Shown here: positions 1 through 23,515 of the stretch, piece by piece
Layout of the letters: every line of letters begins with the position of its first letter
Numbering within the stretch: position 1 is the first letter of the stretch
Source of the DNA: Levilactobacillus enshiensis
GTDB taxonomy: Bacteria > Bacillota > Bacilli > Lactobacillales > Lactobacillaceae
Assembly: GCF_007115095.1 (NCBI RefSeq)
Contig: NZ_SULH01000013.1
Span: forward strand, 1-64,000
Direction: 5' to 3'
Length of the DNA stretch: 64,000 nucleotides
Position numbers and translations under genes: made by a program
The notes under the pieces: generated by a model
What the model saw: the letters and a program-made list of their open reading frames with translations, nothing else
What the model was told of the DNA's origin: nothing
Databases searched by the model: none

Positions 1-2502
1 ATTTTGGAAAGTGAATCGGCTTCGACGAGTGAGTCTGAATCGATTTTGACTAGTGAATCCGAATCTCTTTCAACAGCGGAAAGCGAATCGACTTCGATCC
101 TAGAAAGCGAGTCAGCTTCGACGAGTGAGTCTGAATCAGTTCTGACAAGCGAGTCCGAATCACTTTCCATGGCCGAGAGTGAATCAACCTCGATCCTCGA
201 AAGCGAGTCTGTATCAACGAGTGAATCTGAATCGATTTTGACTAGTGAGTCGGAATCTCTTTCGACAGCCGAGAGTGAATCGACATCTGTTCTAGAAAGC
301 GAGTCAGCTTCAACAAGTGAGTCTGAATCGGTTCTGACTAGTGAGTCGGAATCTCTTTCGACAGCCGAGAGTGAATCGACTTCGGCTCTAGAAAGCGAGT
401 CAGCTTCAACAAGTGAGTCTGAATCGGTTCTGACTAGTGAGTCGGAATCTCTTTCGACAGCCGAGAGTGAATCGACTTCGGCTCTAGAAAGCGAGTCTGT
501 TTCAACAAGTGAGTCGGAATCTCTTTCAACAGCGGAAAGCGAATCGACTTCAATTCTCGAAAGCGAGTCAGTTTCTGCGAGTGAGTCTGAATCAGCTCTG
601 ACAAGCGAGTCCGAATCACTTTCCACGGCCGAGAGTGAATCGACCTCGATCCTCGAAAGCGAGTCTGTATCGACGAGTGAATCTGAATCGATTCTAACTA
701 GCGAATCCGAATCTCTTTCAACAGCCGAGAGTGAATCGACCTCGATCCTCGAAAGCGAGTCTGTATCGACGAGTGAGTCTGAATCGCTTTTGACAAGCGA
801 ATCCGAATCTCTTTCAACAGCGGAAAGTGAATCGACTTCAATTCTCGAAAGCGAGTCAGCTTCGACAAGTGAGTCTGAGTCGGTTTTGACAAGCGAATCC
901 GAATCTCTTTCAACAGCCGAGAGTGAATCGACGTCTGTTTTAGAGAGTGAGTCTGGATCGACTTCGACAGCAGAAAGCGAATCGACGTCTGTTTTAGAGA
1001 GTGAGTCTGAATCAACCTCAACGGCAGAAAGCGAATCGACTTCTGTTTTGGAGAGTGAATCCGAGTCTACTTCAACAGCAGAAAGCGAATCAACTTCGGT
1101 TCTAGAGAGCGAGTCTGAATCGACTTCAACGGCAGAAAGCGAATCAACGTCTGTTTTGGAGAGCGAGTCTGAATCGACTTCAACAGCAGAAAGCGAATCA
1201 ACTTCTGTTCTAGAAAGCGAGTCTGTCTCAACCAGTGAATCCGAATCGACCTCAACAGCAGAAAGTGAATCAACCTCCGTTCTGGAGAGCGAGTCTGAAT
1301 CGACCTCAACAGCAGAAAGCGAATCAACCTCTGTTCTGGAGAGTGAATCCGAATCGACCTCAACAGCAGAAAGCGAATCAACTTCGGTTCTAGAGAGCGA
1401 ATCCGAGTCTACTTCAACAGCAGAAAGTGAATCGACGTCTGTTCTAGAGAGCGAGTCTGAATCGACTTCAACGGCAGAAAGCGAATCAACTTCTGTTCTA
1501 GAGAGTGAATCCAAATCGATCTCAACAGTCGAAAGTGAATCAACCTCCGTTCTGGAGAGTGAGTCTGAATCGACCTCAACAGCAGAAAGCGAATCAACTT
1601 CGGTTCTAGAGAGCGAATCCGAGTCTACTTTAACAGCAGAAAGTGAATCGACGTCTGTTCTAGAGAGCGAGTCTGAATCTACTTCAACAGCAGAAAGCGA
1701 ATCGACGTCTGTTTTGGAGAGTGAATCTGAGTCTACTTCAACAGCAGAAAGCGAATCAACCTCTGTTTTGGAGAGTGAATCCGAATCGACTTCGACAGCA
1801 GAAAGCGAATCGACGTCTGTTCTAGAGAGTGAGTCTGAATCGACTTCAACGGCAGAAAGCGAATCAACTTCTGTTCTAGAGAGTGAGTCTGAGTCGACCT
1901 CAACGGCAGAAAGCGAATCAACTTCTGCTACGATGAGTACCTCTGGCTCGAATAATATTGATTCCGGAACCTCTGGGTTAGTTAACGGAGGCACAGGCGA
2001 TACCGTGAATACTGGTGTGAACGGTGTATCTGGTATTTCAGGCTTCGCTGGTGCTTCAGATACACCTACATCCACAACAACCGTTAATGAAAATAGCGGT
2101 GGTAGTGGCGATGCTATTAGTAATAATGCAACAGCGCTGCGTAGTGGTGGCGATGGTGATCGCGTTTCTGGTAGTGAAAACCAGAATAACATGGGAATGA
2201 TTGCCAATCGGGTTACTGGCAATGGATCAACCAATGACCAGAATGGCCGTTTGACTGGTGTTCCTGAAGATCACACTAGCAAATTGGCAGGAAATACTGC
2301 CAACCAAAGTGACACCGAAGATCGTCATGTTACAACCGGGCATACTGCAACTAGTCATACTGACGCCAACCACACTACGGATCAGGACTTACCTCAAACT
2401 GGTGAGCAGAATACCGGTGGAGCAACCTCGGTACTAGGTTCAATTTTGTTGGGATTCTTGGGATTACTTGGATTTAAGCCGAAACGAAAACGCGACGACT
2501 GA
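1..2502 (+). CDS. Serine-rich repeat surface protein, C-terminal part (5' end outside window)
   Basis: This open frame runs from the first base of the window, so the signal peptide and binding region lie upstream and only about 833 residues are visible. Residues 1 to about 640 are Ser/Glu/Thr-rich tandem repeats. The first part has a 32-residue (96-bp) unit of the type ESxSTSESESxLTSESES. It then changes to an 18-residue (54-bp) unit, [19 protein letters not shown] Gly/Asn/Thr-rich stalk follows, then a sortase anchor: LPQTG at 2389-2403, a hydrophobic stretch and the tail KPKRKRDD. Such proteins are O-glycosylated in the cytoplasm, exported and bound to peptidoglycan. The glycosyltransferases directly downstream are the probable modifiers (inference from context). 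The protein class is clear; the ligand cannot be told. Confidence 0.93.
10..930 (+). repeat. 96-bp tandem repeat array coding for SES-rich segments
   Basis: The coding sequence repeats with a period of 96 bp (32 codons); for example the [10 protein letters not shown] segment at about 10 returns at about 106. Several copies differ only at silent sites, or carry shortened units (around 505), as expected from recombination and slippage within the array. Confidence 0.8.
948..1925 (+). repeat. 54-bp tandem repeat array coding for [18 protein letters not shown]
   Basis: About 18 copies of a 54-bp unit follow the 96-bp array. One copy contains an extra SVSTSES insertion (about 1210-1245) and one reads SKSISTVES (about 1510). 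Copies are nearly uniform in protein but vary at silent sites. Confidence 0.85.
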
Positions 2503-2602: not shown

Positions 2603-2681
2603 GATAACGGACATTGTCTTTCGGGCTTTTCTAGATAATTAGTAGAAACAGTAATTAAGAATGAAAGCGGGAAAATCCAGC

Positions 2682-4190
2682 ATGAATTATTTTGTTGATA
2701 TCGATTTAGGTGGTGCCATCACGGGCATTGAAAAGGCTGAATTTAACCGATTACGATTATTTCAGCAGGCGGGACTACCGGCCAGAATCGTCTATCTAAC
2801 GTATAAACCGCGATTACATGAATATGCCAAGAAATTTGGTATTCAAGGTGTTAGTTTTTCCATTTATGATTATTTTCAGCGTACGCAGGAATACGCTGAT
2901 TTTGGTCATTTTGATTGGCGGCATTATTGGACAGAGACTTGTCATTACAATCTTCAATTTATTGACGGGGTTGCTGACATTCGGATTACCGATGAGAATG
3001 GGCTTTTCATTATGTATGCCTGTTTTTATGATGCAGCGTATTCACGATTGAATTACGTCAACTACTTTGACAAAAACCATGTTAAGATTCGGCGTGATAT
3101 TTATGACAGTCGTGGTTTTCTGAGCTGTACGTGTCTCCTGGCCGAAAAGGATTTGATCAACACGGAACTTTATTATGATCAAAAAGGAAAAGTTCGCATT
3201 ATTAAGCAGTATCTTATCGCGAATGGCAAGTCCTTTTTGCGAGAAATTACAGTGAAAGATTATCAGCATCACGACTATTATTTCGGTAATGAAGATGAGT
3301 TCCGCACGTTCTTTTTTGATTCGCTTTATCAACCTGGCGATACGTTTTTTGCTGATCGGAATAGTAAAATGGGCGTTGCGTTTAGTCATACCAAGCCAGA
3401 GGTCCGAGTTGTCGCCGTCTTTCACAGCACGCATGTCCGTGCGGATGAGAATCCGTTGACCGGATCGTTGAAATTTGGTGGCTATGAATACACGTTGGAT
3501 CATGCCGCTAAAATCTCACGGATTGTGGTGTCAACTGAGCAACAACGCTTGGACCTTGAACGGTGGTTACCTGGTTTGCCGCCAGTAGTTAATATTCCAG
3601 TGGGGTTTGCAGTGCCACAGCCGGTGGATGATACAGACTTTACGCAGCGTAATCCCCATCGCATTATTTGCGTTGCCCGGTACTCGCCAGAAAAGCAACT
3701 CCTGCATCAGCTTCGAGCGGTCGAGCGACTCGTTCCCGAGTTTCCCGATATCGAGCTACATTTGTTGGGGTACGGGGGCCGAGTCAGAGTCCAATTACAG
3801 AAGTATATCGATGACCATCAGCTCAAAGACCACGTGTTTCTGCGTGGATTCCAACGAGACTTAACGGCCGATTATCGGCAGGGAGCGCTTGCACTTATGA
3901 CCAGTAGGGAGGAAGGATTTTCCTTGGCAACGCTAGAGTCTCTGAGCTATAGTGTCCCTGTAATCAGCTACGACATTAACTATGGGCCCCGTGAGATGAT
4001 TGTAGATGGCCAAAACGGTTTTTTAATCCCAGCGGATGACCAAGAAGCGCTGTATCAGAAGATGCGGTTATATCTTGGCGATCGGAATCTACAGCTACAA
4101 ATGATGCGCAATTGTCGGCCGTTGCTTAAACGATACTCACCAGTGCGGATTATGCGACGGTGGCAAAAGTTGGTTCAAAATTTGAAATAG
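2682..4190 (+). CDS. GT4/DUF1975 glycosyltransferase (TagE/GtfA-like), paralogue 1
   Basis: A 502-residue member of the family that includes poly(glycerol-phosphate) alpha-glucosyltransferase TagE/TarM and the SRRP glycosyltransferase GtfA: an N-terminal DUF1975 acceptor region and a C-terminal GT-B donor domain. The donor domain shows ARYSPEK (phosphate-contacting Arg and Lys) near residue 337 and the EX7E motif EGFSLATLE near residue 413, followed by NYGPREMI. The start is placed at ATG 2682 because the paralogues begin MNYFV; an in-frame ATG at 2661 would add seven residues. It is cytosolic. Its position behind a Ser-rich surface protein suggests protein O-glycosylation; a teichoic-acid glycosyltransferase is the alternative. 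It is most like paralogues 2 and 5. Confidence 0.88.
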   Translation: MNYFVDIDLGGAITGIEKAEFNRLRLFQQAGLPARIVYLTYKPRLHEYAKKFGIQGVSFSIYDYFQRTQEYADFGHFDWRHYWTETCHYNLQFIDGVADIRITDENGLFIMYACFYDAAYSRLNYVNYFDKNHVKIRRDIYDSRGFLSCTCLLAEKDLINTELYYDQKGKVRIIKQYLIANGKSFLREITVKDYQHHDYYFGNEDEFRTFFFDSLYQPGDTFFADRNSKMGVAFSHTKPEVRVVAVFHSTHVRADENPLTGSLKFGGYEYTLDHAAKISRIVVSTEQQRLDLERWLPGLPPVVNIPVGFAVPQPVDDTDFTQRNPHRIICVARYSPEKQLLHQLRAVERLVPEFPDIELHLLGYGGRVRVQLQKYIDDHQLKDHVFLRGFQRDLTADYRQGALALMTSREEGFSLATLESLSYSVPVISYDINYGPREMIVDGQNGFLIPADDQEALYQKMRLYLGDRNLQLQMMRNCRPLLKRYSPVRIMRRWQKLVQNLK

Positions 4191-4869: not shown

Positions 4870-4905
4870 CGCGTGACAGAATTACGCTTAAAGAAGGACA
4901 GAGAG

Positions 4906-6411
4906 ATGAATTATTTTGTAGACATTAGTGTTGGTCCCACGATTTCTGGTATTGAGGAGGCTGAGTTCAAACGATTGCAGTTGTTTCAGCAAGCCAAGAT
5001 ACCAGCGACAATCGTGTACTTGGGCTATCAGTCGCGGCTGCATGAATACACGAAGAAGTTTGGTATTCAAGGTCATAGCTTTTCAATGTATGATTATTTC
5101 CAGGGATCACGGCAATATGCCGAATTGAAACACTTTGATTGGCGTCATTATTGGGAGAATGATTGTCATTATCATTTGGAAAATGTCCCCGGGACCTTCG
5201 ATATTCGGATCATGGATGAAAATGAGTTATTCATTATGTACGCGCATTTTCTCGATGCGGCTTACTCGCGGATCGATTATGTTAACTACTTTAACCCTAA
5301 TCGTGCGAAGATTCGGCGGGATGTTTATGATGTCCGGGGGTTCTTGAGCCGGACTAGCTTACTTGCCGAACAGGATACCATCAATACGGAACTCTACTTT
5401 GATCAACATCAACGGGTTCGTATCATGAAACAGTACAAACGGGTGGACAATAAATCACTGTTGCGTAAAATTACGCTCAAAAATTATCATCAGCGGGATT
5501 ACTTCTTTGATACCGAGGGAGAATTTCGAACCTTTTTCTTAAATGAACTTTATCGTTCGGGGGACGTGTACTATTGTGACCGTAATAGTGCAATGGCCAA
5601 GACGTTTCACGAACTGCGCCCAGAGATCGCGACGTGTGCCGTCTTTCACAGTACGCATGTGCGCGTGGGCCAGGACATCCTGACGGGGACCTTGAAAGCC
5701 AATATTTATGATTACACGTTGGCCCATCCAGAAAAGCTCAGCCGCATTGTGGTGTCGACTGAACAACAGCGCCGTGATTTGTTAGCGCGGTATACGACGT
5801 TACCACCCGTAGTGACTATTCCGGTGGGGTTTGCGATGCCGCAACCAGTTGATTTTACAGCGCGCAACCCGCACCGAATCATTAGTGTTGCCCGATATTC
5901 ACCTGAGAAACAGTTGCTTCATCAAGTGAAGGCCGTTGAACGGTTAGTGGCTGAATTTCCAGATGTCGAACTTCATTTACTGGGGTCCGGTGCCAAGATT
6001 GAGAAGGTCTTGCGCGATTATATTCGTACACACCATCTGACAGAGCACGTGTTTCTGCGGGGGTTCCAGACGGATCTGACCGCCGATTACCAACGGGGGG
6101 CGCTGGCCTTGATGACCAGTAAAGAAGAGGGCTTTTCACTAGCAACACTAGAAGCGTTGAGCTTTAGCGTGCCAGTGATTGCTTACGACATCAACTATGG
6201 TCCCAGTGAAATGATCACGGATGGTGAAAATGGTTTCCTAGTCCCGGCGGATAATCAAGAAGTGCTCTATCAGAAGATTCGGACGTATTTAGGCAATCGG
6301 GACTTGCAATTGAAGATGATGGCGAACTGTCAACGACTATTGGCGCCATATGCGCCGTCAGTCGTTCAGCGGAAGTGGCAAGATTTCGTCCAACACGTCA
6401 CGCAAGACTAA
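4906..6411 (+). CDS. GT4/DUF1975 glycosyltransferase (TagE/GtfA-like), paralogue 2
   Basis: A 501-residue enzyme very close to paralogue 1 (same MNYFVDI start, GIEEAEF, YDYFQG and HSTHVR segments). Donor-site signatures are intact: ARYSPEK near residue 331 and EGFSLATLE near residue 407, then NYGPSEMI. ATG 4906 is preferred over the longer frame from 4831 because AAGGA lies 8 bases upstream and the paralogues agree. It is expected to be a cytosolic retaining transferase using an activated sugar, acting on Ser/Thr of secreted glycoproteins or on glycerol-phosphate polymer; sequence alone does not separate these. The metalloprotease-like gene starts about 55 bp downstream, so the two probably share a transcript. 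Confidence 0.88.
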   Translation: MNYFVDISVGPTISGIEEAEFKRLQLFQQAKIPATIVYLGYQSRLHEYTKKFGIQGHSFSMYDYFQGSRQYAELKHFDWRHYWENDCHYHLENVPGTFDIRIMDENELFIMYAHFLDAAYSRIDYVNYFNPNRAKIRRDVYDVRGFLSRTSLLAEQDTINTELYFDQHQRVRIMKQYKRVDNKSLLRKITLKNYHQRDYFFDTEGEFRTFFLNELYRSGDVYYCDRNSAMAKTFHELRPEIATCAVFHSTHVRVGQDILTGTLKANIYDYTLAHPEKLSRIVVSTEQQRRDLLARYTTLPPVVTIPVGFAMPQPVDFTARNPHRIISVARYSPEKQLLHQVKAVERLVAEFPDVELHLLGSGAKIEKVLRDYIRTHHLTEHVFLRGFQTDLTADYQRGALALMTSKEEGFSLATLEALSFSVPVIAYDINYGPSEMITDGENGFLVPADNQEVLYQKIRTYLGNRDLQLKMMANCQRLLAPYAPSVVQRKWQDFVQHVTQD

Positions 6412-6465: not shown

Positions 6466-7353
6466 ATGTTCAAGGTGCTCCGACGAATTCTGTATCTAAT
6501 CATTTTAGCGGCAGTCGTGTTCTTCGTGGTCAAGGGTATGACTAAGGTCAACATTTCACTGTTTGGGAATCACAATTACTACCAGCGGTCTAAGGGGACC
6601 AGCACGAACGATGGTTTAGTCAATCAGAAAACTTATTCACAGGCCAAGCTTAAACAATTAACGACGATTACGCATGGAACGCGATATTCTGGGAATACCA
6701 GTCTGGATAAGGTTGCCACCGAGTATTCTTATAAGCTGGCGGGCCATACCATTAATAACTTCATGGGCCGTGATGGCGTCCTACAACTCTACAATGAATC
6801 GTCTTTTATGTCGGATAAGATGGTCAGAGACGCCGCTGACTATTGGAATACCTTAGCGGGAACCAAAATTGTCGAAGTCGTTAAGACGGCTAAGGCTAGC
6901 GATGAAGTCATCCATGATGATCAGGAACAAAATAAATACGGTATCGGTGGTCAAACCTACAATAATATGGGGATGCTCTTCTATCCACGTAATTGGGGAG
7001 TGACCGGATTAACGGCCCGTGGCAGGAACAATTGGAAAGAAGCCATTTTACTGCGAGAGATTGGTCATGCGCTGGGAATTCCGAACCTCGGCGGCGGAAA
7101 AACGGGGATTAACGATCGTAATGCAAATAAGAAGACAACGGACTTTATGGGTAACTGGGGGGTCGAACTGCCTGCCGCACCGTTGGCAAATCAGCATGGC
7201 ATCACCAGCACACCGGTGGACGCCGCAGCACTGACGATTGCGGGTATCGCATGGCCACGACCACAGAAGCTAGCCAATTGGGTGTTCACGACGCCGAAGG
7301 CCACGGTCAATTATGACAATGGAAAAATTGTTTCGACAATTCCTAAGCCTTAG
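6466..7353 (+). CDS. Membrane-anchored matrixin-like protein with degenerate zinc site
   Basis: 295 residues from ATG 6466 (GGGGGAA upstream; a TTG at 6424 is less likely). An N-terminal hydrophobic helix (about residues 7-24) would anchor it with the bulk outside. It aligns throughout with the gene at 10975 (ITHG..YxGNTSLD, DGVLQLYN, GGQTYN, FYPxNW). The zinc motif HExxHxxGxxH reads REIGHALGIPN here (about 7051-7083): the first and third metal-binding His are Arg and Asn, while Glu and the second His remain. I read it as a catalytically impaired relative, perhaps a substrate-binding or regulatory partner of the intact copy. A read-through partner of glycosyltransferase 2; a terminator follows. 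Confidence 0.82.
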   Translation: MFKVLRRILYLIILAAVVFFVVKGMTKVNISLFGNHNYYQRSKGTSTNDGLVNQKTYSQAKLKQLTTITHGTRYSGNTSLDKVATEYSYKLAGHTINNFMGRDGVLQLYNESSFMSDKMVRDAADYWNTLAGTKIVEVVKTAKASDEVIHDDQEQNKYGIGGQTYNNMGMLFYPRNWGVTGLTARGRNNWKEAILLREIGHALGIPNLGGGKTGINDRNANKKTTDFMGNWGVELPAAPLANQHGITSTPVDAAALTIAGIAWPRPQKLANWVFTTPKATVNYDNGKIVSTIPKP

Positions 7354-7360
7354 GATTGGT

Positions 7361-7393
7361 AGGACTGAGGATGATTCCTTGGTCCTTTTTTTG
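7361..7393 (+). terminator. Rho-independent terminator
   Basis: AGGACTGAGGA pairs with TCCTTGGTCCT (two wobble pairs) and is followed by a run of seven T. Confidence 0.8.
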
Positions 7394-7821: not shown

Positions 7822-9342
7822 GTGTATTATTTTATTAATGAGTACCTGTTACAAAAAAATTCAAGTGTTGAACATACGGCAATGAATCGGGTGAAATTAT
7901 TTAATCACTACAAAACCCCCGCCAAGATCGTGACGAAGATTTATGATCGACTCTTGCACCAGACCATTAGTAAATTTGGTGTCGCTGATGATCAGGTTAT
8001 GAACATGTTTGATTACTTTCAGGGGCTTACTGATTCAGGTGCCCCCAAGTTTGTGACCACAGATAAATTGAATTTGCCAATTGAATATGAAGTGAACGTT
8101 GGGGCAAACTTCAGTGGGGTCTTTGATGGCGATCGACTAATCGCCAACGTTGGTTTTATTCCGGGCACCATTGGTCGGGTCTTCTATCAAGAGTTTTTTG
8201 ACCAGCTAGGTAATCGTGTCGGAACTGACCTCTGGGATTGGCGAGGGTTCAGGTCGGCGACACAATATTTCGGGCAGAATGGCCAGTTGATTTCGCAGCG
8301 TTACTATCGTGCTGATGGGCAAACGGCAATTGAGGAATACTTTACTCAAAGTACTGAGGGTAAGCCATTGACGTCACGGATGATCTTAAAGAACTATCAG
8401 GGTGAGGGTGACCGCTTCTTCCAGAACGCGGATGACCTGTTTACCTTTTTCTTAAATGAATTGAGTAAACAAGATCCCGAACGGACGACGTTCATCGTCG
8501 ATCGTCCTGGAACGGGGGTCAATCCCTTGCTGGCGTTGGATGACAATTCGCGTAAATACGTTTACGTCCCGATTAACCATGCGGTCAGTCCCAATGATCC
8601 GATTCATGCGGATCTCGATGGCTTCCTGGCCCCAGCATTTGAACACTTCAGTCATTTCGATGGCTTCATTACAGGTACGCCCCAGCAGGCAGCCAATTTG
8701 AGCACACGTTTCCCTAAAGCACCAGTCTTCTCAATACCTGCGGTGACTACGTTGCCAACCTCAAAGGAAGAAACACGGGAAGTGGTGCCTAGCGAACGAC
8801 TGCCGCACAGCGTCATCTATGTTGGTCGAATTGCTAAGGATAAGCAGATTGAACAGCAACTCCGCATGTTCGCACTGGTTAAGGACCGGGTTCCAGATGC
8901 CACCTTTACCTTATTTGGCTATGGCAGTGCGAAATACGTTGCGGATATGGAGAAGTTGGCACAAGAATTGAATCTTACAGCGAGCGTCACGTTTAAAGAC
9001 TATGTGCCCGACCTGAACGAACAGTATGATCATTATCAAGTCATGACCAACATGTCACTAGCAGACGGTGGTCCCTTGGCGATGTTAGAAGCCATGATCC
9101 ATGGTATTCCAGCGGTCAGCTATCGGTTCAACTACGGGCCCACCGATTTTATTGCGGATGGCAAGGACGGTTATCTAATTGCACCGGGGCAAGCCCTGGC
9201 TATGGCGGATAAGGTTGTTGATCTATTGCTAGATGAGCAGAAACTAACGGCGTTCAGTCACGCTGCGTATGTCAAAGCGCATGACCAATGGACGCGCCGA
9301 AAAGTTTGGAACCGGTGGCAGAAGGAATTGAAGAGCGAATAG
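7822..9342 (+). CDS. GT4/DUF1975 glycosyltransferase family, degenerate donor motif (GtfB-like), paralogue 3
   Basis: 506 residues from GTG 7822 (MYYFINE). It has the same two-part layout as the others but is the most divergent. The usual RxxxxEK appears as GRIAKDKQ, and the EX7E motif is changed to DGGPLAMLE, losing the first Glu. In the known SRRP O-glycosylation pairs GtfA carries the active site and GtfB is an acceptor-binding partner without a working donor site. This gene lies 27 bp before a paralogue with an intact motif (9370), so I propose a GtfB-like subunit of a GtfA/GtfB-type complex. It might still be active on an unusual donor. Confidence 0.82.
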   Translation: MYYFINEYLLQKNSSVEHTAMNRVKLFNHYKTPAKIVTKIYDRLLHQTISKFGVADDQVMNMFDYFQGLTDSGAPKFVTTDKLNLPIEYEVNVGANFSGVFDGDRLIANVGFIPGTIGRVFYQEFFDQLGNRVGTDLWDWRGFRSATQYFGQNGQLISQRYYRADGQTAIEEYFTQSTEGKPLTSRMILKNYQGEGDRFFQNADDLFTFFLNELSKQDPERTTFIVDRPGTGVNPLLALDDNSRKYVYVPINHAVSPNDPIHADLDGFLAPAFEHFSHFDGFITGTPQQAANLSTRFPKAPVFSIPAVTTLPTSKEETREVVPSERLPHSVIYVGRIAKDKQIEQQLRMFALVKDRVPDATFTLFGYGSAKYVADMEKLAQELNLTASVTFKDYVPDLNEQYDHYQVMTNMSLADGGPLAMLEAMIHGIPAVSYRFNYGPTDFIADGKDGYLIAPGQALAMADKVVDLLLDEQKLTAFSHAAYVKAHDQWTRRKVWNRWQKELKSE

Positions 9343-9369: not shown

Positions 9370-10902
9370 ATGTATTATTTTTTGAATGATAACATGCAGT
9401 ACTCAAAATCAGGAATTGAACATGCGGAAATCAATCGATTACACTTGTTTAAGCAACACCACGTGCCAGCAAAAATTGTGACGCGAATTTTCTCTATGGA
9501 TTTGACGAACATCTTGCGACAATCTGGGATTCAGCGTGAAAATTTTGTGAATCTCTTTGAATTTTTCTGTGGTAGTACCCAAGTTGCAAGTCAGTCGTTC
9601 ACGATGAATGAGTTTTCTTTGCCGGCCAATACGACCACGACTCGTAAGGACGATCAGTTACAGGTCTTTGCGCAGGGAAAGATGCTCATGATCATCTATT
9701 TCCGTAAGCAATCGAACGAGATTAGCAATGTCCAGTACTTCGACGTTAACGGCCGAACCGTATCGATGGTTTGGTGGGATGTGCGGGGATTCAAGTGTCT
9801 CGAACAGTTCTTTGATCTTGAGGGGAAGATTTCTCAGGAACAATACTATGGTCCAGATGGCCGCGTTCACTTGGAAAAGAACCATTACCTCAATCGTGGG
9901 GGCAAAGAGTGTTTGTCATGGCGTGTCTTGAATTATCGGAACAGTAGCTGGGTCTTTGGCGGTATGAATGAATTGACCCGTTTCTTCTACGATGAATTGA
10001 ATGGGCTGGACCAGCACAACGTCTTTATTTGTGACCGGACGGTTGAATGTGATTGGGGGTTATTCCACATGCAGACGCCGGCGTTCAAGGTGCTTCATCT
10101 CCACAATGATCACGTGAGCGACCCGAGTGACATGCTGCATTCACCATTAAATAATAATTACACGAACGCACTGAATAACTGGGCAAAGTGGGATGCGGTC
10201 ATTTCGGCGACACCGGAGCAAACAGAAGATGTGGCTAACCGGTTTGGAAGTGATATTCCAGCCTTTACGATTCCAGTCGGTTATGTTTCGGACAAGGAAA
10301 TTGCTGCACCGCACCAAGACTTTACTGCCCGGCAGAAGAACCTCATCGTGCACGTCGCGCGACTCGCACCTGAAAAACAACAGAACCATTCGATTCAGGC
10401 TTTTGCCCAGGTTCATCAACAGTTCCCAGACGCGCGGCTTGAGCTTTGGGGGTATGCAAACGGTGATATTGAACAACAACTTAAGCAACAAGTGGCCGAT
10501 GCCGGTTTGCAGGACGTGATCACTTTTAAGGGCTACACGAGTGATATCGATGCCGTGTATGACCGTGCACAGATCGGAATTTTGCCTAGTCGTGCTGAAG
10601 GTTTCTCACTGACACTGCTTGAGGCGCAATCTCATGGTGTCCCAATGGTTGCCAATGATGTGAAGTATGGTCCTAGTGATATTATTCAAGATGGGGTCAC
10701 GGGAATCCTGACGGAAGATGGCCAACCGCAACAATTGGCGGATGCCCTGATTAAGTTACTGGGAAACCAAGAACTTTTGAAGACTTACAGTGCCGCAGCA
10801 TACGAAAATGCCAAGCGCTACTCGGAGGACGCCGTCTTTGAGAAGTGGCAACAGTTATTGGATTATTTTGATAGTTTAGAACGCGAAAAGGCCGCTGTTT
10901 AA
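9370..10902 (+). CDS. GT4/DUF1975 glycosyltransferase (GtfA-like), paralogue 4
   Basis: 510 residues beginning MYYFLND with GGGAGG upstream. The donor domain is intact: ARLAPEK near residue 337 and EGFSLTLLE near residue 413, then KYGPSDII. The start MYYF and the segment SGIEHAEINRLHLF match the preceding gene, from which it is separated by 27 bp, so the two form one operon. I infer a catalytic subunit adding the first sugar (typically N-acetylhexosamine in related systems) to Ser/Thr of the Ser-rich adhesins, working with the degenerate paralogue 3. Homologues in Lactiplantibacillus were first named TagE and later shown to act in protein O-glycosylation, so the TagE name may mislead. Confidence 0.88.
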   Translation: MYYFLNDNMQYSKSGIEHAEINRLHLFKQHHVPAKIVTRIFSMDLTNILRQSGIQRENFVNLFEFFCGSTQVASQSFTMNEFSLPANTTTTRKDDQLQVFAQGKMLMIIYFRKQSNEISNVQYFDVNGRTVSMVWWDVRGFKCLEQFFDLEGKISQEQYYGPDGRVHLEKNHYLNRGGKECLSWRVLNYRNSSWVFGGMNELTRFFYDELNGLDQHNVFICDRTVECDWGLFHMQTPAFKVLHLHNDHVSDPSDMLHSPLNNNYTNALNNWAKWDAVISATPEQTEDVANRFGSDIPAFTIPVGYVSDKEIAAPHQDFTARQKNLIVHVARLAPEKQQNHSIQAFAQVHQQFPDARLELWGYANGDIEQQLKQQVADAGLQDVITFKGYTSDIDAVYDRAQIGILPSRAEGFSLTLLEAQSHGVPMVANDVKYGPSDIIQDGVTGILTEDGQPQQLADALIKLLGNQELLKTYSAAAYENAKRYSEDAVFEKWQQLLDYFDSLEREKAAV

Positions 10903-10974: not shown

Positions 10975-11871
10975 ATGTTGTGGAAACGGCTGATGCAGTG
11001 GGGGTTAGCGGCTGCGAGTCTGTCTCTAGTCGTACTGGGGATGACGGGATTAAATGGGCGTGAGAACCCGCAACCAGCGGCGAAGCAGTCCATAAAACAA
11101 GACTACCAGCGAACAGCAACCTATAGTCCGCCGGGTGGTCGGATTGACCAACACATCTATTCTCAAAAGCAGTTGCGGGCCTTAACGGCAATCACACATG
11201 GCAGTCAGTACCGGGGGAATACGAGCTTAGATGCCGTAGCGACCCAGCATGTTTACCAGTTGAATGGCCGTAACCTGGCGAATATTGTGGGGAACGACGG
11301 GGTTCTACAACTGTACAATGACTCCCATTTTATGACGACCCGGATGGTGAAAGATGCCGCTGGGTTTTGGAATCGCGTGGCAGGAACGCAAGTGGTTGAG
11401 GTGGTTGCTCATCCGGACCAAAGCGATGAGATTATTCATGATGGTAAGCGTACGCAGCCGGTACTCGGTGGTCAGACGTACAACGGTAAGGGAATCTTGT
11501 TCTATCCTGGCAATTGGCGAATCCAGAACTTGTCACAGCGTAATCAGCAAAATTGGAAGGAAGCAGCGCTAATCCATGAAATTGGTCACGCATTGGGCAT
11601 TCCTCATTTGGGTGGGGGACCATTAGGGACTAATGCTGCTAAAGCAGGTGTGGCGACGGTCGAACTTATGGCAGTCTGGTCTGTTGGTCGAGCAGGGTCG
11701 CCGCCTGAAAATGAGTTGGGGGTCAAAAGTACGTCCATGGATGCCGCAACTTTGGCTTTAGCCGGATTAAGCTGGCAGCATCCTCGTCGACTGGCGGGCT
11801 GGGTATTGCAAACGCAGCGTGTCGTTTTATATGACAACGGGCACCTCACAACGATTAATAAATCAAAATAA
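10975..11871 (+). CDS. Membrane-anchored matrixin-like zinc metalloprotease
   Basis: 298 residues with an N-terminal hydrophobic helix (about residues 9-26) that acts as signal or anchor. The catalytic motif is complete: HEIGHALGIPH, matching HExxHxxGxxH of metzincins, followed by LGGG, with a downstream Met (VELMAVW) in a plausible Met-turn position. AGAGGTG precedes the ATG. It is the intact paralogue of the protein at 6466. The extracytoplasmic location and its place among glycosyltransferase and Ser-rich adhesin genes suggest processing or shedding of surface glycoproteins (inference). The substrate cannot be deduced. Confidence 0.85.
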   Translation: MLWKRLMQWGLAAASLSLVVLGMTGLNGRENPQPAAKQSIKQDYQRTATYSPPGGRIDQHIYSQKQLRALTAITHGSQYRGNTSLDAVATQHVYQLNGRNLANIVGNDGVLQLYNDSHFMTTRMVKDAAGFWNRVAGTQVVEVVAHPDQSDEIIHDGKRTQPVLGGQTYNGKGILFYPGNWRIQNLSQRNQQNWKEAALIHEIGHALGIPHLGGGPLGTNAAKAGVATVELMAVWSVGRAGSPPENELGVKSTSMDAATLALAGLSWQHPRRLAGWVLQTQRVVLYDNGHLTTINKSK

Positions 11872-11994
11872 AATAAAACGACTGAACTAGTTAGATGACT
11901 TGAATTATCTAATGGTTGCAGTAGGCCTTTAACGTAGAAGACGGGTATTCTGAAGAGTAATGGCGTAGACGTAATTATAGATGGGGTGGCGAAC

Positions 11995-13491
11995 GTGAAT
12001 TATTTTGTCAATCAGAATTTGGGAATGAATTTAACCGGGATTGAAAAAGCGCAATTGAACCGCTTGGCGTTATTCAAAGCGGGAGGGATGGACGCTAAAA
12101 TTCTGACGGTGGGTTTTAATACGCGCTTGCATGAGAATGCGCGTCGCTTTGATGTGGCTGGTCGCTGCTTTTCGATGTATGACTACTTTCAAGGCGTAAT
12201 GGATGATGAAACGGTGACGACGTTTGATTGGATTGCGTATTGGAAAAAGTGTGGATTTACTTTGAAATATATTCCAGAGACCAAGGATGTCCGCGTGTTT
12301 GCGGCAGATGGGCAATTTTTGCTGTACGCGCGGTTCTATGATCAACAGTATCGGTCAATCGAGTACTTGAACTATTTTGATCAACACCATGCTAAAATCA
12401 AGCGAGAATTGTTCGATCAGCGTGGTTTTTGCAGTCAGGTGATCTACTTGGCGGCAATGCAGAAGATTCAAGCGAGGGTTTATTTGAATCGTCAGGGGCA
12501 GGCCTGCTTGGAAGAACTGTACGATTCCGACCAGAAGTTAGAGTCGACACTACGGCAGATTATTGTGCATAGTCGTGAGGGCCGAGATTACTTCTTTAAT
12601 ACGCAAGCGGAACTACAGACGTTCTTTTTTAACACACTCTATCAAGCTGGGGATGTCTACATCAGCGACCGGAATTTAAAGTTAGCCGAGACCCTCAGCA
12701 AGACGGATACGAACGTTAAAGTTTGTGTTGTCTTCCACAGTACGCATGCGCAGAGCCAAACGGACGTCATGGGATCTCGTATCAAGAGCCATTATCGCTT
12801 TATGTTGGAACACATCACGGATTTCGACCGCTTTATCTGTTCGACTGAATATCAGAAGCGAGACCTCTTGGAACGCTTTCCAGACTTGCCGGTCGTGGCG
12901 ATTCCTGTAGGCTTCACGCAGCCACAAGTCCTCGCACCAGAGAAGCGACAGGCCAATCGAATAATTGGGGTTGCACGTTATTCGCCAGAAAAGCAGGTGA
13001 TGCATCAGGCTGTGGCGATTTCTAAGTTAGTGGCAGAGTTCCCAGACGTTCAGCTGCATCTGTTTGGCTATGGCAGCCAGGAAAAGGCCCTACGAGACTT
13101 TATTACAGAACATCATTTGGAAAAAAATATTTTCTTGCGTGGGTTTTATCCGGATCTGACGGCAGAATATCAGATGGCCTCTTTAGCTTTGCTGACGAGT
13201 CGCGAAGAGGGGTTCTCACTAGCGACACTCGAAGCCCAAAACTTTGGTGTGCCCGTCATCAGTTACGACGTCCGCTATGGGCCAAGTGAACTGATTCAGG
13301 ATGGGACCAATGGCTTTTTGGTGACCGCCAACGATCAAAATGAATTATATGAAAAAATACGAGATTATTTGCGCCAGCCGGACTTACAAGAGCAGTTTCG
13401 ACGTGAAAGTCTAGCCACTGCTGAAAAATTCTCTGCAGCGGCCGTCACGAAGAAATGGCAAGATTTAATTCGCAGTGTGTTAGCTGATTGA
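11995..13491 (+). CDS. GT4/DUF1975 glycosyltransferase (TagE/GtfA-like), paralogue 5
   Basis: 498 residues from GTG 11995, which gives the family start MNYFVNQ; GTG 11986 would add three residues but sits inside the GGGGTGG ribosome-binding site. It groups with paralogues 1 and 2 (GIEKAQLNRLALF, YDYFQG, HSTHAQ). Donor-site signatures ARYSPEK (near residue 328) and EGFSLATLE (near residue 404) are intact. It is the last glycosyltransferase before the giant adhesin and ends with a strong terminator, so the adhesin is transcribed separately. Confidence 0.88.
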   Translation: MNYFVNQNLGMNLTGIEKAQLNRLALFKAGGMDAKILTVGFNTRLHENARRFDVAGRCFSMYDYFQGVMDDETVTTFDWIAYWKKCGFTLKYIPETKDVRVFAADGQFLLYARFYDQQYRSIEYLNYFDQHHAKIKRELFDQRGFCSQVIYLAAMQKIQARVYLNRQGQACLEELYDSDQKLESTLRQIIVHSREGRDYFFNTQAELQTFFFNTLYQAGDVYISDRNLKLAETLSKTDTNVKVCVVFHSTHAQSQTDVMGSRIKSHYRFMLEHITDFDRFICSTEYQKRDLLERFPDLPVVAIPVGFTQPQVLAPEKRQANRIIGVARYSPEKQVMHQAVAISKLVAEFPDVQLHLFGYGSQEKALRDFITEHHLEKNIFLRGFYPDLTAEYQMASLALLTSREEGFSLATLEAQNFGVPVISYDVRYGPSELIQDGTNGFLVTANDQNELYEKIRDYLRQPDLQEQFRRESLATAEKFSAAAVTKKWQDLIRSVLAD

Positions 13492-14248: not shown

Positions 14249-17200
14249 GTGAAATTTATGCGGAATAAAGCTTTTAATGGCGATCCTAAATTACGTTACA
14301 AGATGTTCAAGGCAGGGAAGACGTGGGTCTTCACTGCGATTGCATCTTTCTCGTTATTGGGTGCCGGAAACTTAACAGCCAAAGCTGATACCACTAGTCA
14401 GGCTGATAGTTCTTCTAGCGCAGCGGTCGCCTCAGCTACTAATTCATCGAATACAGTCACATTACAATCAAGTTCGGCGGCAGCTAGTGCCGCTACGGAA
14501 AGCAATACAACGTCAGCGACTAACACAGAGACCGAAACGACTACGGCAACGAGCTCTGAAGCCAGTAACAGTGCAGCTTCGGGTGAAAGCGCTTCATCAA
14601 ATGCTGCTGAATCCTCAAGCGGCGCAACCAGTACGGCGGTAACTAGTGTAGAGGCAACCAGTGCTGAAGCCACGAGTGCCGAAGCAACTAGTGACGCCAC
14701 TACGGCCGCCAGTTTAGCCGCAGAAAGAATTGCAGCGAGTGCCAATACTGACGTGACCTTGACGACTAACGTCACCAAGGCCGTCACTAAAACAGCTACA
14801 ACCAAGAAGGCTGTTGCAGCAAATGACGCTGCAGTATCGGCGGCAGATAGTAGTGCGGCCAATGCGGCTTCCTCAGCAGCAGTTGCAGCTTCAACCGCAG
14901 CGAGTGCAGCGTCCAGTTACGCAACGTTAGTGCCTACAACGGATACGCAGTCGGCAACGAGTGCGGCCAATAGCGCATATAAAGAAACTTTACAAGCATA
15001 CGACTATGCGAAACATTACAATAGTTTGGCCAACATGTACCTAGCAGCAACGGACGTTTCTAGCGATGCTCCGGGGATGGCACAATCATACGCAACTGCC
15101 AACTCATTGGCGAGTTCCTACGCTGAAGATGCAAAATCCTATGCTGGTGTGACGTCCAGTGCCGCCGATGCAGCACGGATTGCAGCCGCACAGGGCGCTA
15201 AGGACATTGTGAGCTCTTACGCTAAGGATGCACACAAGTTAGCTAACTCAGCCGCCGTTGCTGCAGAAGAAGCCTCATCTGCAGCTAGCAGCGCTTACTT
15301 GGCAACTCAGTACGCCAAGGATAACTCCGCAGCATTAGCTGCTGCCACAGCAGCTAACTCAGCCTTCTCTTCGGCGAGTTCAGCTGCAACTGAAGCACTT
15401 AGTTTGGCTAATCAAGCGGATAAACTTTATGAAACTGCAAGTAGTGCTGCTGTTTCTGGCGACTACGATGCTGCAAGTACGGCTTTAGCTTCAGTAATTC
15501 AGGTAGCAACTGTAGATGCAGTGGCAGCGAACCAAGCCGCCAGTGATTTCCGTGATCAGGCGGTCGCTGCTGCCAAGCAAGCCATTGACCTATCTGTCAC
15601 GGATGCGGTCAGTGAAGCAACTAGTAGTGCTAACAAGGCCAGCAGTGCGGCTAGTGTTGCTGCGAGTGCTGCTGCTGCAGCGAGTGGCTACAACGGGGAT
15701 CAGTCAGCGCAATATGCAGCTGATGCTTCTAGTTACGCCGCAGTTGCTTCCGAAGCCGCTGCAACAGCAAGTACAGCAGCAGTCAATGCGGCAACGGCAA
15801 CAACACCTAAAGAAGCACATAACTTTGCTTTAACGGCAGATTCAGCCGCCGTAGTTGCTCGTAGTGCTGCCGCCGAAGCGGTAACGGCAGCTAGTTTGGC
15901 CGAACAATTTGATACTAATGTTGACACGCCACACAAGGACAATGAAGGTAACGTTAGTGCGACCTTGAGTGCAGATAAGGCATTGGCTGACTTGGGCGAT
16001 TCAATTACTTTGACCACTAACCTAGGTATCACTGGGTTGTACAGTCTTAGTGGCAAGGTAACCTACACGTGGTACGTGTCGACCGATGGCAAGAACTGGA
16101 CTTCTTTAAACGACCCAACCACGTCCAGCAATGAAAAGCCAACGAACAATATTGTGACGCCAAATGCCGGGGGAACTTACTACTACCAAATGGTAGCAAC
16201 CGGTAAGAAATCAATTCCATTAACAATTGGGTCAACTGTGAACTTTGCCCAGGCAAGTAACATCATTACTGTTGTTGTCACGGATGCGAAAGGGACTTAC
16301 ACGGATCAAGCTAGCACCGCCGCTAGTTTGGCTGCTAGTTATGCGGCTAAGGCAGCATCCAATGCAACGGCAGCTAGTACTGCAGTGACCAATATGGATA
16401 AGCTGGTTACCTTTAACGAACAAGAATTGTTAACGGCATCATCTTATGCTACTAAAGGTCGGGAAAACACGGCGGATGCCGCGTCATATGCAGCGGAAGC
16501 AAAGACAGCTGCAACGGCGGCTAGCACCGCACAAAGTAATGCTGCGGTAGCTGAAGAAGCCGGTGATTACACTAATGCAAGTTCTTACGCTGCAGTAGCC
16601 ACGGCGAGTGCCAATGACGCTAATTCTTATGGACTTTTAGCAAGTACCGCCGCATCTACGGCACAAAGTAATGTGAACCAGGCCTTGTTTAAGGCTGCTG
16701 GAATAACGGGCGATAAAGACACTGGCGAGTATTTATCTAGTAGTTATGCGCAAGCGGCAGCTGACGCAGCTAGTGCAGCCAATAGTGCGTACAATTTAGC
16801 TAATTCGCATGCGCAAGATGCAAATAACGCTTACTTGGCAGCTGGTGGGGACTTTAACACTGGTGCGTCAACGGCGAACTCAATTGCAACTTCAGCCGCC
16901 GCCGCAGCTAAATCATATGCGAAAGCAGCAAACACGGCAGCTAGTAATGCCGCCGCTGCGGGTACGTACGATGATGCTGCCGCCGCAGCTGATGCAGCAA
17001 ATACCAATTTAACCTTTGCTAACTCTGCCGCCGAAGTTGCTGGTAGTGCTGCCGCTGCTGCAACGACGAACATTATCGATGCGCAATCTGCTTACGCTGC
17101 TTCCGTTGCCGCTGCAATCGTGCTTCAAGACTCCACAGCGGTCTCTAATGCGGCAGTAGCAGCCTCCACGGCAAATTCTTTAGCGAGTGCTAACAAGGTC

Positions 17201-20200
17201 AATACGAGCTTAGGATCTTCTTACGTAGCCGAAGCCTTGGAGTACGCACAAGCTGCTCAATTTGCAGCTGCTTCTGGGGACATTGCTGCCTCAGAAGCTA
17301 ACAGCTACATGGCGCAAGCCTCCTCAGCTGTTGCTGCTGGTGACTTTATCGCCGCCAGTTCCTACGTTTCGTTAAGTAACTCGGCTGCTGCTAGTGGAAA
17401 TTCTTACGCAACGGCGGCAACCTCAGCAGCTGCCGCAGCAGCAGAATCCGTCTTTGAAGCTGGAAATTATTCAAACAACACGTCGAAGAATCAAGAAAAA
17501 CCATACGGAAACGCAACGATCGTTTGGGGAATTGCGTTGACTAATGGTTACACGCAACAACCAGCCCCACTGACCTCAACCATGCAGAATAGTACCTTTA
17601 CGCTGACTGGAACGACTAAGTTAGGGTTGGTCAACATTCCGGCCATTACAACATCAGTAAATTGGTACGTTCAAGTTAACGGCACGTGGATGAAGGTTGA
17701 AAAGGCTGTTAGCCAAGGGTATCTGAAATCAGCTTCCGCAAAGAGTAACAACGGATTAGGGATTAAGACGTCAACGTCAAGTACGTTAACGGTTGAAACC
17801 AATGATACATTTAAAGGAAACTTACGATTCCAAATGGTTTCTGACTATGGTGTTTTGATTGGGGCAACGATGGGTAGTGACATTGCCGAAGTTAACGTTT
17901 ACGACAGGGAAGTTGCCGCAACCGGGATTACGATCTCCGGGGACGATTACTTGTTGAACTCGGCACCCGGAACCTATGTGGCAACACCTAATCCAAGCAA
18001 TGCAACTGGAACGGTTACTTGGAAGAGTAGTAACACCAGTATCGCTACGGTCGATGGTGCTGGGGTGGTAACGCCAGTTTCGGTTAATAGTAAAGGTAAG
18101 GTTACTATTACAGCAACTATCACTAATAGTGATGGGTCATCATATTCCGATTCTAAAGAAATTATGATCGGTAATGGATTACTGGATCAAACGGCTAATG
18201 CGGGGGATACTGTTTACTTCACGCCACAAACGAGTTCTGGTGTATCTGATAGCACAGTTAGCTACCAATGGTACAAATCAGATTCTGCTTCTGGAGCTGG
18301 AAAAGCCATTAGTGGTGCAACCGAAGCTACGTTAAAACTTGAAGATGTGACGTTAGGTGGCGCAGGCTACTACTACCTGGTTATTACTGGAAGTGGTAGT
18401 TCAGTAACTCTTGGGAGTGCTTACCTGACTGTTCTGAGTTCACAAGGTGTAGCCGCTTCAGATGCAGCTAGTGCGGCATCATCAGCAGCGGTTGACGCGG
18501 GCGTTTATGCAAGTATCGCGAATTCCTATGCTAATGTGGCAGATCAGTATGCTGGCGAGAATTATGTTGAGTCTACTTCGTACGCAGCGCAGGCTGCTGA
18601 AGCAGCAAATACAGCAACACAAGCTGCCCAGGCTGCTTCAGATGCAGCTAGTGCGGCGGTTGAAGCGCAGTCAAATGCTGATTCAGCTGAAGCAGCGGGA
18701 GACAATGCGGCAGCTTCAAGCTATGCAAACCAGGCCAAAGAAGCAGCCTCTGCAGCGCAAGATGCTAAGGAAAAAGCTTCTAGTGCCGCTGATGATGCGT
18801 ACTCCTATGCAAGTTTGGCAGTAGAAGCTCATCAGGAAGCAGATAGTGATAGCGACAGTGATTCCGATAGCGACTCCGACAGCGACAGTGGTTCTGATTC
18901 TGATAGTGAATCTGATTCGGATAGCGATAGTGATTCCGATTCCGATAGTGACTCAGACTCCGACAGTGACTCGGACAGCGACAGTGACTCGGACTCCGAT
19001 AGCGATTCAGATTCTGACAGCGACTCAGATTCGGACAGTGACTCCGACTCCGATAGCGATTCCGATTCTGACAGTGACTCAGATTCCGATTCCGATAGTG
19101 ACTCGGATTCTGACAGTGATTCAGACTCGGACAGTGACTCAGATTCTGACAGTGATTCAGACTCCGATAGCGATTCCGATTCCGATAGTGACTCAGATTC
19201 TGACAGTGATTCAGACTCTGACAGTGATTCAGACTCTGACAGCGATTCCGATTCTGACAGTGATTCAGACTCCGATAGTGACTCAGATTCCGATAGCGAT
19301 TCCGATTCTGACAGTGACTCAGATTCCGATAGCGATTCAGACTCGGACAGTGACTCAGACTCCGATAGTGATTCCGATTCTGACAGTGACTCGGATTCCG
19401 ATAGCGATTCAGACTCCGACAGCGATTCGGATTCTGACAGCGACTCAGATTCTGACAGTGATTCGGATTCTGACAGTGATTCGGATTCTGACAGTGACTC
19501 GGATTCCGATAGTGATTCAGATTCTGACAGCGACTCAGATTCCGACAGTGACTCAGATTCCGACAGCGACTCGGATTCTGACAGTGATTCAGATTCGGAC
19601 AGTGACTCGGATTCTGACAGTGATTCGGACTCCGATAGTGACTCCGACTCCGACAGTGATTCAGATTCTGACAGCGATTCAGACTCCGACAGTGATTCGG
19701 ACTCCGACAGTGATTCCGATAGTGACTCCGACTCCGATAGTGACTCAGATTCTGACAGCGACTCGGATTCTGACAGTGATTCCGATTCAGATAGTGACTC
19801 AGATTCCGATAGTGATTCCGACTCCGACAGCGACTCAGATAGCGACAGCGATTCCGACAGTGACTCCGACTCCGACAGCGATTCAGACTCCGACAGTGAT
19901 TCGGATTCTGACAGTGACTCGGATTCCGATAGTGATTCCGATTCTGACAGTGACTCAGACTCCGACAGTGACTCCGACTCCGACAGTGACTCCGACTCGG
20001 ACAGTGATTCTGACTCGGACAGTGACTCAGACAGCGACAGTGACTCGGACAGCGATAGTGACTCGGACAGCGATAGTGATTCAGATTCTGACAGTGACTC
20101 AGACTCAGATAGTGACTCGGATTCTGACAGTGATTCCGACTCGGACAGTGATTCTGACTCCGACAGTGACTCAGATAGCGACAGTGATTCGGATTCAGAC

Positions 20201-23200: not shown

Positions 23201-23515
23201 GCGACATCTGCCGCGAACACTGCACAACCCGTTGATCTTAGAACGGCGAACGTTGCAACAAACGGAAACGTTCAAAGTGATAACGCTACTGATGACAAGA
23301 GTAAGAGTGCTGACAAACAAACAGCTACTGAAAAGAGTTCGGCTGATAAAGGAACAACAGCTAAAGGCTCGGATGGTAACTTAATTTCCAACCCAGCGAC
23401 TAGAAATGATGGTTCAAAGACTCTCTGGGGAGCTATCGTTGCAGCCATTGCGGCAGCAACCGGTGGATCATGGTGGTTCTTAAGTGGTAAACGTAACAAG
23501 AAAGATGGCGACTAA
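14249..23515 (+). CDS. Giant serine-rich Ser-Asp repeat adhesin
   Basis: 3088 residues from GTG 14249 (AGGAGG 9 bases upstream). An extended signal peptide carries KMFKAGKTW at residues 18-26, the KxYKxGKxW-type motif of accessory-Sec substrates. Long Ala/Ser-rich segments (about 50-555, 680-1085, 1400-1530) with recurrent SAA/SYA patterns look helical. Ig-like domains lie at about 560-680 and 1090-1220, a Big-2-like domain (TGITISG...VTWKSSN) at about 1221-1305 and another Ig-like domain at about 1310-1400. Residues 1532-2871 are almost pure Ser-Asp repeats. A Gly/Asn/Ser stalk follows. The C-terminus has a hydrophobic helix and KRNKKDGD but no LPxTG; NPATR at 3048-3052 sits where a sorting motif would be. 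It is probably a glycosylated adhesin or biofilm protein on the cell surface. Confidence 0.92.
18842..22861 (+). repeat. 4-kb Ser-Asp dipeptide repeat with 18-bp DNA period
   Basis: About 1340 residues of SD repeat. Asp is GAT or GAC. Ser codons follow a dominant order of two TCN then one AGY, giving an 18-bp unit GAYTCNGAYTCNGAYAGY, the same unit known from staphylococcal ClfA/Sdr proteins. A few units are shortened or have Gly/Glu in place of Ser or Asp. Confidence 0.9.

Follow-up and report, generated by a model that had tools for sequence, protein, structure and literature searches.

In metzincin metallopeptidases the zinc is held by three ligands. The protein described here, which we call the R-form, resembles the matrixins, or MMP-like metzincins (PF00413; karilysin, human MMP), in its model-predicted fold, the methionine of its Met-turn, the catalytic Glu and the middle His of the zinc motif. 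It differs from them in having Arg or Lys in place of the first His and Asn, Ser, Thr or Asp in place of the third, in the absence of a Pfam M10 match, and in an N-terminal segment that we read as an anchor. A fold that is kept and conserved after its ligands are lost is likewise a feature of pseudopeptidases in other metallopeptidase families, such as inactive ADAMs, the M16 alpha subunits and Goe (PMC11266112, parts of which were available to us). According to those parts, pseudoproteases have mostly been discussed in animals, inactive relatives control sheddases and signalling, and Goe is a type II membrane protein, to which the R-form with its predicted anchor may be likened. The same parts name no bacterial matrixin, and the R-forms are distinct in sharing one clade-wide basic replacement within a surface-glycoprotein island.

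The second comparable system is that of SdgA and SdgB in staphylococci, where, as at the locus studied here, a Ser-Asp repeat protein lies beside glycosyltransferases of this kind. The portion of the source available to us (PMC3794999) reports that Sdg glycosylation shields Ser-Asp repeat proteins from host protease and mentions no metzincin, while our glycosyltransferases also differ in scoring under the curated SdgA/SdgB cut-offs. A literature search, to which most subscription journals were not open, found no description of the R-form. Pseudoproteases as such are already known; what this looks like is a clade of bacterial pseudo-matrixins that carry a basic residue at the place of the zinc.

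The window, by which we mean the whole analysed stretch of 64,000 nucleotides (positions 1 to 64,000 of contig NZ_SULH01000013.1, assembly GCF_007115095.1, of Levilactobacillus enshiensis), carries the R-form gene among the following features, given in their order along the DNA.

4 to 2502, plus strand: end of a protein with Ser-Glu-Ser repeats, LPQTG and a match to a Gram-positive anchor, running off the left edge of the window.
2661 to 4190, plus strand: SdgA/SdgB-like family-4 glycosyltransferase (SdgB model 479 bits, under the curated cut-off of 800).
4900 to 6411, plus strand: SdgA/SdgB-like glycosyltransferase, separated by 54 bases from the R-form that follows (start 4900 chosen within a listed frame from 4831).
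6466 to 7353, plus strand: R-form, matrixin-like, with two zinc-ligand positions replaced (from sequence, translation and model).
7054 to 7086, plus strand: altered site REIGHALGIPN, residues 197-207 of the R-form (R197, E198, H201, N207).
7147 to 7149, plus strand: Met-turn methionine M228 of the R-form, invariant in both forms.
7361 to 7386, plus strand: terminator-like hairpin with T tail just 3' of the R-form (consensus match).
7822 to 9342, plus strand: SdgA-like glycosyltransferase, first of a conserved pair (profile matches).
9370 to 10902, plus strand: SdgA/SdgB-like glycosyltransferase, second of the pair (profile matches).
10975 to 11871, plus strand: H-form, the intact paralogue of 298 aa, with HEIGHALGIPH at 11575-11607 (translation).
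11986 to 13491, plus strand: SdgB-like glycosyltransferase after the H-form, the fifth of the island (profile matches).
14249 to 23515, plus strand: serine-rich adhesin-like protein of 3088 aa with a KxYKxGKxW signal and a long Ser-Asp repeat.

The Ser-Asp repeat of the adhesin-like protein (window positions 18700-23000) exceeds 1000 residues, and other reading frames stay open across it for about 1430-1460 codons as by-products of the repeat. The hairpin belongs to a class that is not above shuffled sequence (8 found, 10.0 expected).

The R-form is encoded by an open frame from ATG to TAG, with GGGGGA ahead of the start, and has 295 residues. Its N-terminus has a basic start followed by a hydrophobic segment (about residues 8-26), probably a signal anchor that would leave the domain outside the cell. 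The R-form does not fit the zinc motif HExxHxxGxxH, whereas the H-form does; the two are of the same length, share invariant columns, and are 46% identical over 296 columns in the window. The sequence-only reading had set REIGHALGIPN against the HEIGHALGIPH of the gene at 10975, with the codons CGA at motif position 1 and AAC at position 3, and all of this was confirmed by reading the sequence. At E ≤ 1, the only matches of the R-form in its own genome were itself and the H-form.

That reading had also called the protein matrixin-like. The term is justified by the H-form motif, the Met-turn methionine, which is invariant in two alignments, of 32 and of 31 sequences, that cover both forms, and the model fold, but not by profile matches: the R-form has no match to Pfam M10 at E ≤ 1 and none to NCBIfam, and the H-form is seen in these two collections only below cut-off (M10, 14.8 bits against a cut-off of 24). 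The models of the two forms are of similar quality (R-form, pLDDT 75.7 and pTM 0.77; H-form, 74.2 and 0.75). With VIA-align, the best match of the R-form model was karilysin 4in9 (Z 9.4, 2.8 Å over 136 residues), and every one of the 50 chains listed was an MMP or karilysin entry; the best match of the H-form model was human MMP-1 (Z 9.4, 3.3 Å over 148 residues). Foldseek gave a best E of 4.2e-4 for the R-form, with low TM-scores for both forms, and a family profile run against the sequences of solved structures found serralysins alone, with weak E-values (best 0.0048). We grade an MMP-like metzincin fold of the R-form as probable only, because middling Z values are common in such comparisons (models that lack a clear match reach 7 to 8) and because the TM-scores are low; the intact motif of the H-form and the Met-turn are independent support for it.

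The replacement of the two ligands is clade-wide. R-forms were collected from 20 genomes and one metagenome-assembled genome, each of the 21 sequences from a different genome, and in a tree with the 11 motif residues masked they form one clade (support 100/98) that was recovered in all of 200 bootstrap trees and requires one change of state. This tree omits two long-branch rows, g18c and g18e; an earlier tree that included them gave an R clade of 20, also with 100/98. Position 1 of the motif is Arg in 18 and Lys in 3 of the 21, and position 3 is Ser in 8, Asn in 7, Thr in 5 and Asp in 1, with His at neither position in any of them, so that the alignment proposed as a check by the sequence-only reading turned up no full motif within the clade. 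Shared by every one of the 21 clade members, each from a different genome, the double replacement is more than chance. The catalytic Glu (Glu198) and the middle His (His201) are kept in 21/21. In 19 R genes, position 1 is encoded by CGA, CGG, CGT, CGC, AGA, AAA and AAG (five Arg and two Lys codons), so a basic residue has been kept amid codon change, and the Glu and His positions each use both of their codons. The two zinc ligands were lost once, in the common ancestor, long ago, and the protein has been preserved since.

Selection on the R-form was assessed for 19 of the 21 sequences (the codon and dN/dS tables leave out G005 and G032, and the row of L070 starts one codon late). Nei-Gojobori dN/dS was 0.029-0.075 in the 15 pairs with a finite value, a sixteenth pair being saturated, and it was 0.055-0.075 in five pairs of species without an H-form. 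Because many dS values lie near saturation, pN was compared as well. Lower values in R than in H were found in 8 of 9 species pairs both for pN (exception tujiorum/hammesii) and for dN/dS (exception andaensis/koreensis). Both forms are less constrained than the neighbouring glycosyltransferases at 7822 and 9370, and pN of the R-form exceeds that of the two enzymes in all 8 comparable pairs; the glycosyltransferase tree has 27 rows, without G030, G029, G016 and others. Within the R clade the active helix (residues 190-206) is the best conserved of 15 regions, with a mean column identity of 0.80 against 0.59 for residues 59-295, a clustering at the cleft that is modest, as 3% of circular shifts reach the same level. 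Over all columns the H-forms have a mean identity of 0.65 and 92 invariant columns against 0.59 and 74 for the R-forms, figures that come from unlike species sets, the R set spanning more lineages. The region after motif position 3 is looser in R (0.64) than in H (0.83).

These results bear on the explanation of the R-form as a decaying duplicate or a sequencing error. Two catalytic ligands are indeed gone, and the copy in G005 departs further: its motif REIRHALGIPD and its long end branch (0.29 against a median of 0.067) are the reasons why we think that this copy may be relaxing. Against decay stand the agreement of 21 separate genomes in a single old clade, dN/dS values that do not exceed 0.075 and show no relaxation, and R frames free of internal stops; where a copy is broken, in G031, it is the H-form. 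We therefore reject decay and error, which are hardly credible with 21 agreeing genomes and such low dN/dS, and the proposal that this is a maintained pseudoprotease and not a decaying gene is upheld in its main point.

The behaviour of a matrixin site that drifts can be seen in the same genus. PF00413 matches number 4-10 in every Levilactobacillus genome; in that of the window there are six further M10 matches, five with an intact motif and the sixth as follows.

G000:C1:63582-64091 (L006:1441-2001), minus strand: second degenerate matrixin, 187 aa, with AELGSALGLNY (M10 match).

Its relatives in the genus were read from 30 loci (L109-L138) of a longer match list. Among the 31 rows read, 15 lack HExxH; of these 15, 3 retain the Glu and none the middle His, and some rows of this lineage also lack the methionine of the Met-turn. 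As this lineage drops Glu and His and the R clade keeps both in 21/21, free drift of a dead matrixin site looks unlike what is seen in the R clade, for which the AELGSALGLNY lineage is a ready comparison.

The R-form is present in 20 of 35 Levilactobacillus genomes, and the count for R-form or H-form is likewise 20, so there is no genome with an H-form alone (0/35). A scan of named genomes gave 19 loci, titled Levilactobacillus, Lactobacillus sp. or uncultured Lactobacillus, and the named loci of the two forms include L. brevis, L. hammesii, L. koreensis and L. parabrevis. Outside the genus, the survey took in 397 family and 395 order genomes, sampled evenly from larger groups, and no R-form was seen among the matches read. 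The relatives in other genera are proteins of 400 aa (g57) and 370-418 aa (g18), and those whose motifs were read have, unlike the R-form, HExxH and the third His. This survey covers part of the weak matches; L041 has no row in the motif table, and L046 is a 105-aa fragment with no readable motif. Spread of the R-form on plasmids was considered and rejected, as there were zero matches among 72,556 plasmid records (from which records of the own genome were possibly excluded).

An intact short H-form was found in 11 genomes (G000, G002, G008, G009, G010, G013, G019, G022, G027, G028 and G032) and a broken one in G031, while eight genomes have the R-form without any H-form (G003, G005, G006, G014, G016, G025, G029 and G030), so that 9 of the 20 carriers lack an intact H-form partner. 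In G031 and G032 there is, in addition, a longer intact relative (1067 aa). A protein of this length at L072:9992-13195 and L054:10926-14126 has an intact H-type matrixin domain followed by repeats with GW-domain matches, and it lies in the same chromosomal island. If the duplication predates the first split of the R clade, as the tree suggests, the H-form would have been lost or broken three times (in the L. brevis-like group, in G005 and in G031) while the R-form was kept. Gene transfer may also have contributed to the history of the two forms.

A dedicated partnership, with the R-form as heterodimer subunit, inhibitor or substrate-presenting subunit of the intact H-form, in the manner of the inactive alpha subunit of the mitochondrial processing peptidase, has to be weighed against this distribution. 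Pseudopeptidases that act as partners have precedents (PMC11266112, in the parts available). The R-form accompanies every intact short H-form (11 genomes) as well as the broken one (hypergeometric probability 1.5e-4 for 12/12 among 20/35, which is overstated because the species are related). The two genes are direct neighbours in six loci, with gaps of 9-13 bases (13 in L070) or, in three loci, an overlap of 4 bases. In the window species and three close relatives, on the other hand, two glycosyltransferase genes separate H from R, and the eight carriers without an H-form retain a constrained R-form, as the dN/dS values of the five species pairs given above indicate. The description of the R-form as paired with an intact paralogue thus holds in the window and cannot be generalised: because an H-form is absent from eight of the 20 R genomes and broken in one, it is not an obligatory partner, and such a partnership is rejected as the general role. 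Of the roles that the sequence-only reading had suggested, a substrate trap or a regulator, those eight genomes make it unlikely that regulation of the intact paralogue alone is what the R-form does in general. The other matrixins of each genome could replace the H-form, and a weaker version of the partner explanation therefore survives, but we regard partnership as rather unlikely.

The setting of the R-form in the adhesin island is constant. A relative of the glycosyltransferase at 9370 occurs at E ≤ 1e-60 in 32 of 35 genomes, and in all 20 R genomes it lies within about 11.3 kb of the R-form. An adhesin gene match is likewise present in the island of 20/20 R carriers (in G025 as a C-terminal fragment at a contig end). 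The glycosyltransferase is also found in 12 genomes without an R-form, and the islands of ten of these (all except G012 and G020) contained a clear adhesin match in four cases, a Ser-rich frame alone in four, and neither in two (G004 and G023). The four with a clear adhesin indicate that the R-form accompanies the adhesin and that the adhesin does not need the R-form. Shared neighbourhood with the adhesin does not, of course, prove shared function.

As the R-form lost its zinc ligands long ago and yet has been preserved, it probably has a job different from ordinary zinc-dependent cutting. On balance, we lean towards reading the R-form as a pseudoprotease whose metzincin fold is exported and anchored in the membrane and, after a single loss of two of the three zinc ligands, has been kept as a non-catalytic part of the surface-glycoprotein island. 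To our knowledge, Arg and Lys are not zinc ligands in metzincins and cannot replace His, and it is because of the lost ligands that we infer the R-form to be catalytically dead. It would then bind no catalytic zinc, and the basic side chain at the zinc place may stand in for the charge of the metal, keeping Glu198 and His201 in position. The kept cleft could still bind peptide or glycan, the bound partner presumably being the serine-rich-repeat adhesin or some other polymer that the island produces; the R-form might hold the adhesin, shield it from the cell's other matrixins, or hand it on at the cell surface. By analogy, a non-cutting matrixin that occupied matrixin-sensitive sites of the adhesin would fit both the protection afforded by Sdg glycosylation and the several PF00413 proteins encoded in each genome.

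The R-form might instead have remained a metalloprotease whose ligands are unusual, or a protease with a narrower activity. Glu, the middle His and the Met-turn methionine are all kept, and the single R member with Asp at position 3 recalls snapalysin, in which Asp is the third zinc ligand. This explanation seems very improbable to us, as position 1 is Arg or Lys in 21/21 and 20/21 have Asn, Ser or Thr at position 3, and as no other invariant residue capable of acting as a ligand, and absent from the H clade, was noticed when the columns of the two clades were compared.

A metzincin site rebuilt to work without zinc is a further explanation, which we consider improbable, if less so than residual metalloprotease activity. 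Here Arg or Lys would replace the charge of the metal. Together with Glu and the middle His it would make up a centre that catalyses or binds covalently without a metal, or else a site whose ligands are acidic Ser-Asp repeats, sugars or polymers of the wall; it is doubtful, though conceivable, that this specific site binds or chemically acts on an acidic Ser-Asp glycoprotein or its glycans. The invariance of Glu and His and of a basic position 1 through synonymous turnover would be explained, and pseudo-matrixins of the second lineage in the same genus lose the Glu and the His. Position 3, however, is free to be Asn, Ser, Thr or Asp, folding alone may account for the retention of the same residues, and we know of no chemistry for an Arg/Lys-Glu-His set in a metzincin. 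Were the rebuilt site real, a former protease would now serve adhesin display, without a metal, as a receptor, chaperone or enzyme.

On the pseudoprotease reading that we favour, the R-form is an apparent bacterial metzincin counterpart, in harmless food-related lactobacilli, of the pseudoproteases of animals, and it suggests a missing component in the biogenesis of serine-rich-repeat adhesins. Nature provides the R-form with an intact H-form, with a broken H-form and alone, as well as genomes with neither, which makes the role of a protease fold after cutting has stopped testable.

Several further observations concern the island. The N-terminal part of the glycosyltransferase at 7822 (window positions 7822-9339) exceeds the Pfam cut-off for Asp1, a protein of accessory Sec export (30 against 26 bits), and a genome-wide Asp1 search of the own genome listed no match over cut-off. 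In the L. brevis-like species without an H-form, the R-form follows a group of polymer genes, and in five of them it adjoins a protein of 1072 aa in which a MurF-like ligase, a part resembling D-Ala-D-Ala carboxypeptidase and a PGA_cap domain are fused; this protein lies directly ahead of it (L062:6756-9974 in L. brevis, and in G003, G016, G025 and G029; the fusion is split in G024). Islands of the L. brevis type also have a conserved protein of about 546 aa between the adhesin and the glycosyltransferase pair (for example L087, 17437-19077), with no Pfam match at E ≤ 0.01. Throughout the genus the adhesin island (L056, L087-L106 and the window) is flanked on one side by a relQ-nadK-rluD group and on the other by a block that we take to be cutC, an AI-2E-like gene, rlmA, trmL and ftsK; its contents vary strongly.
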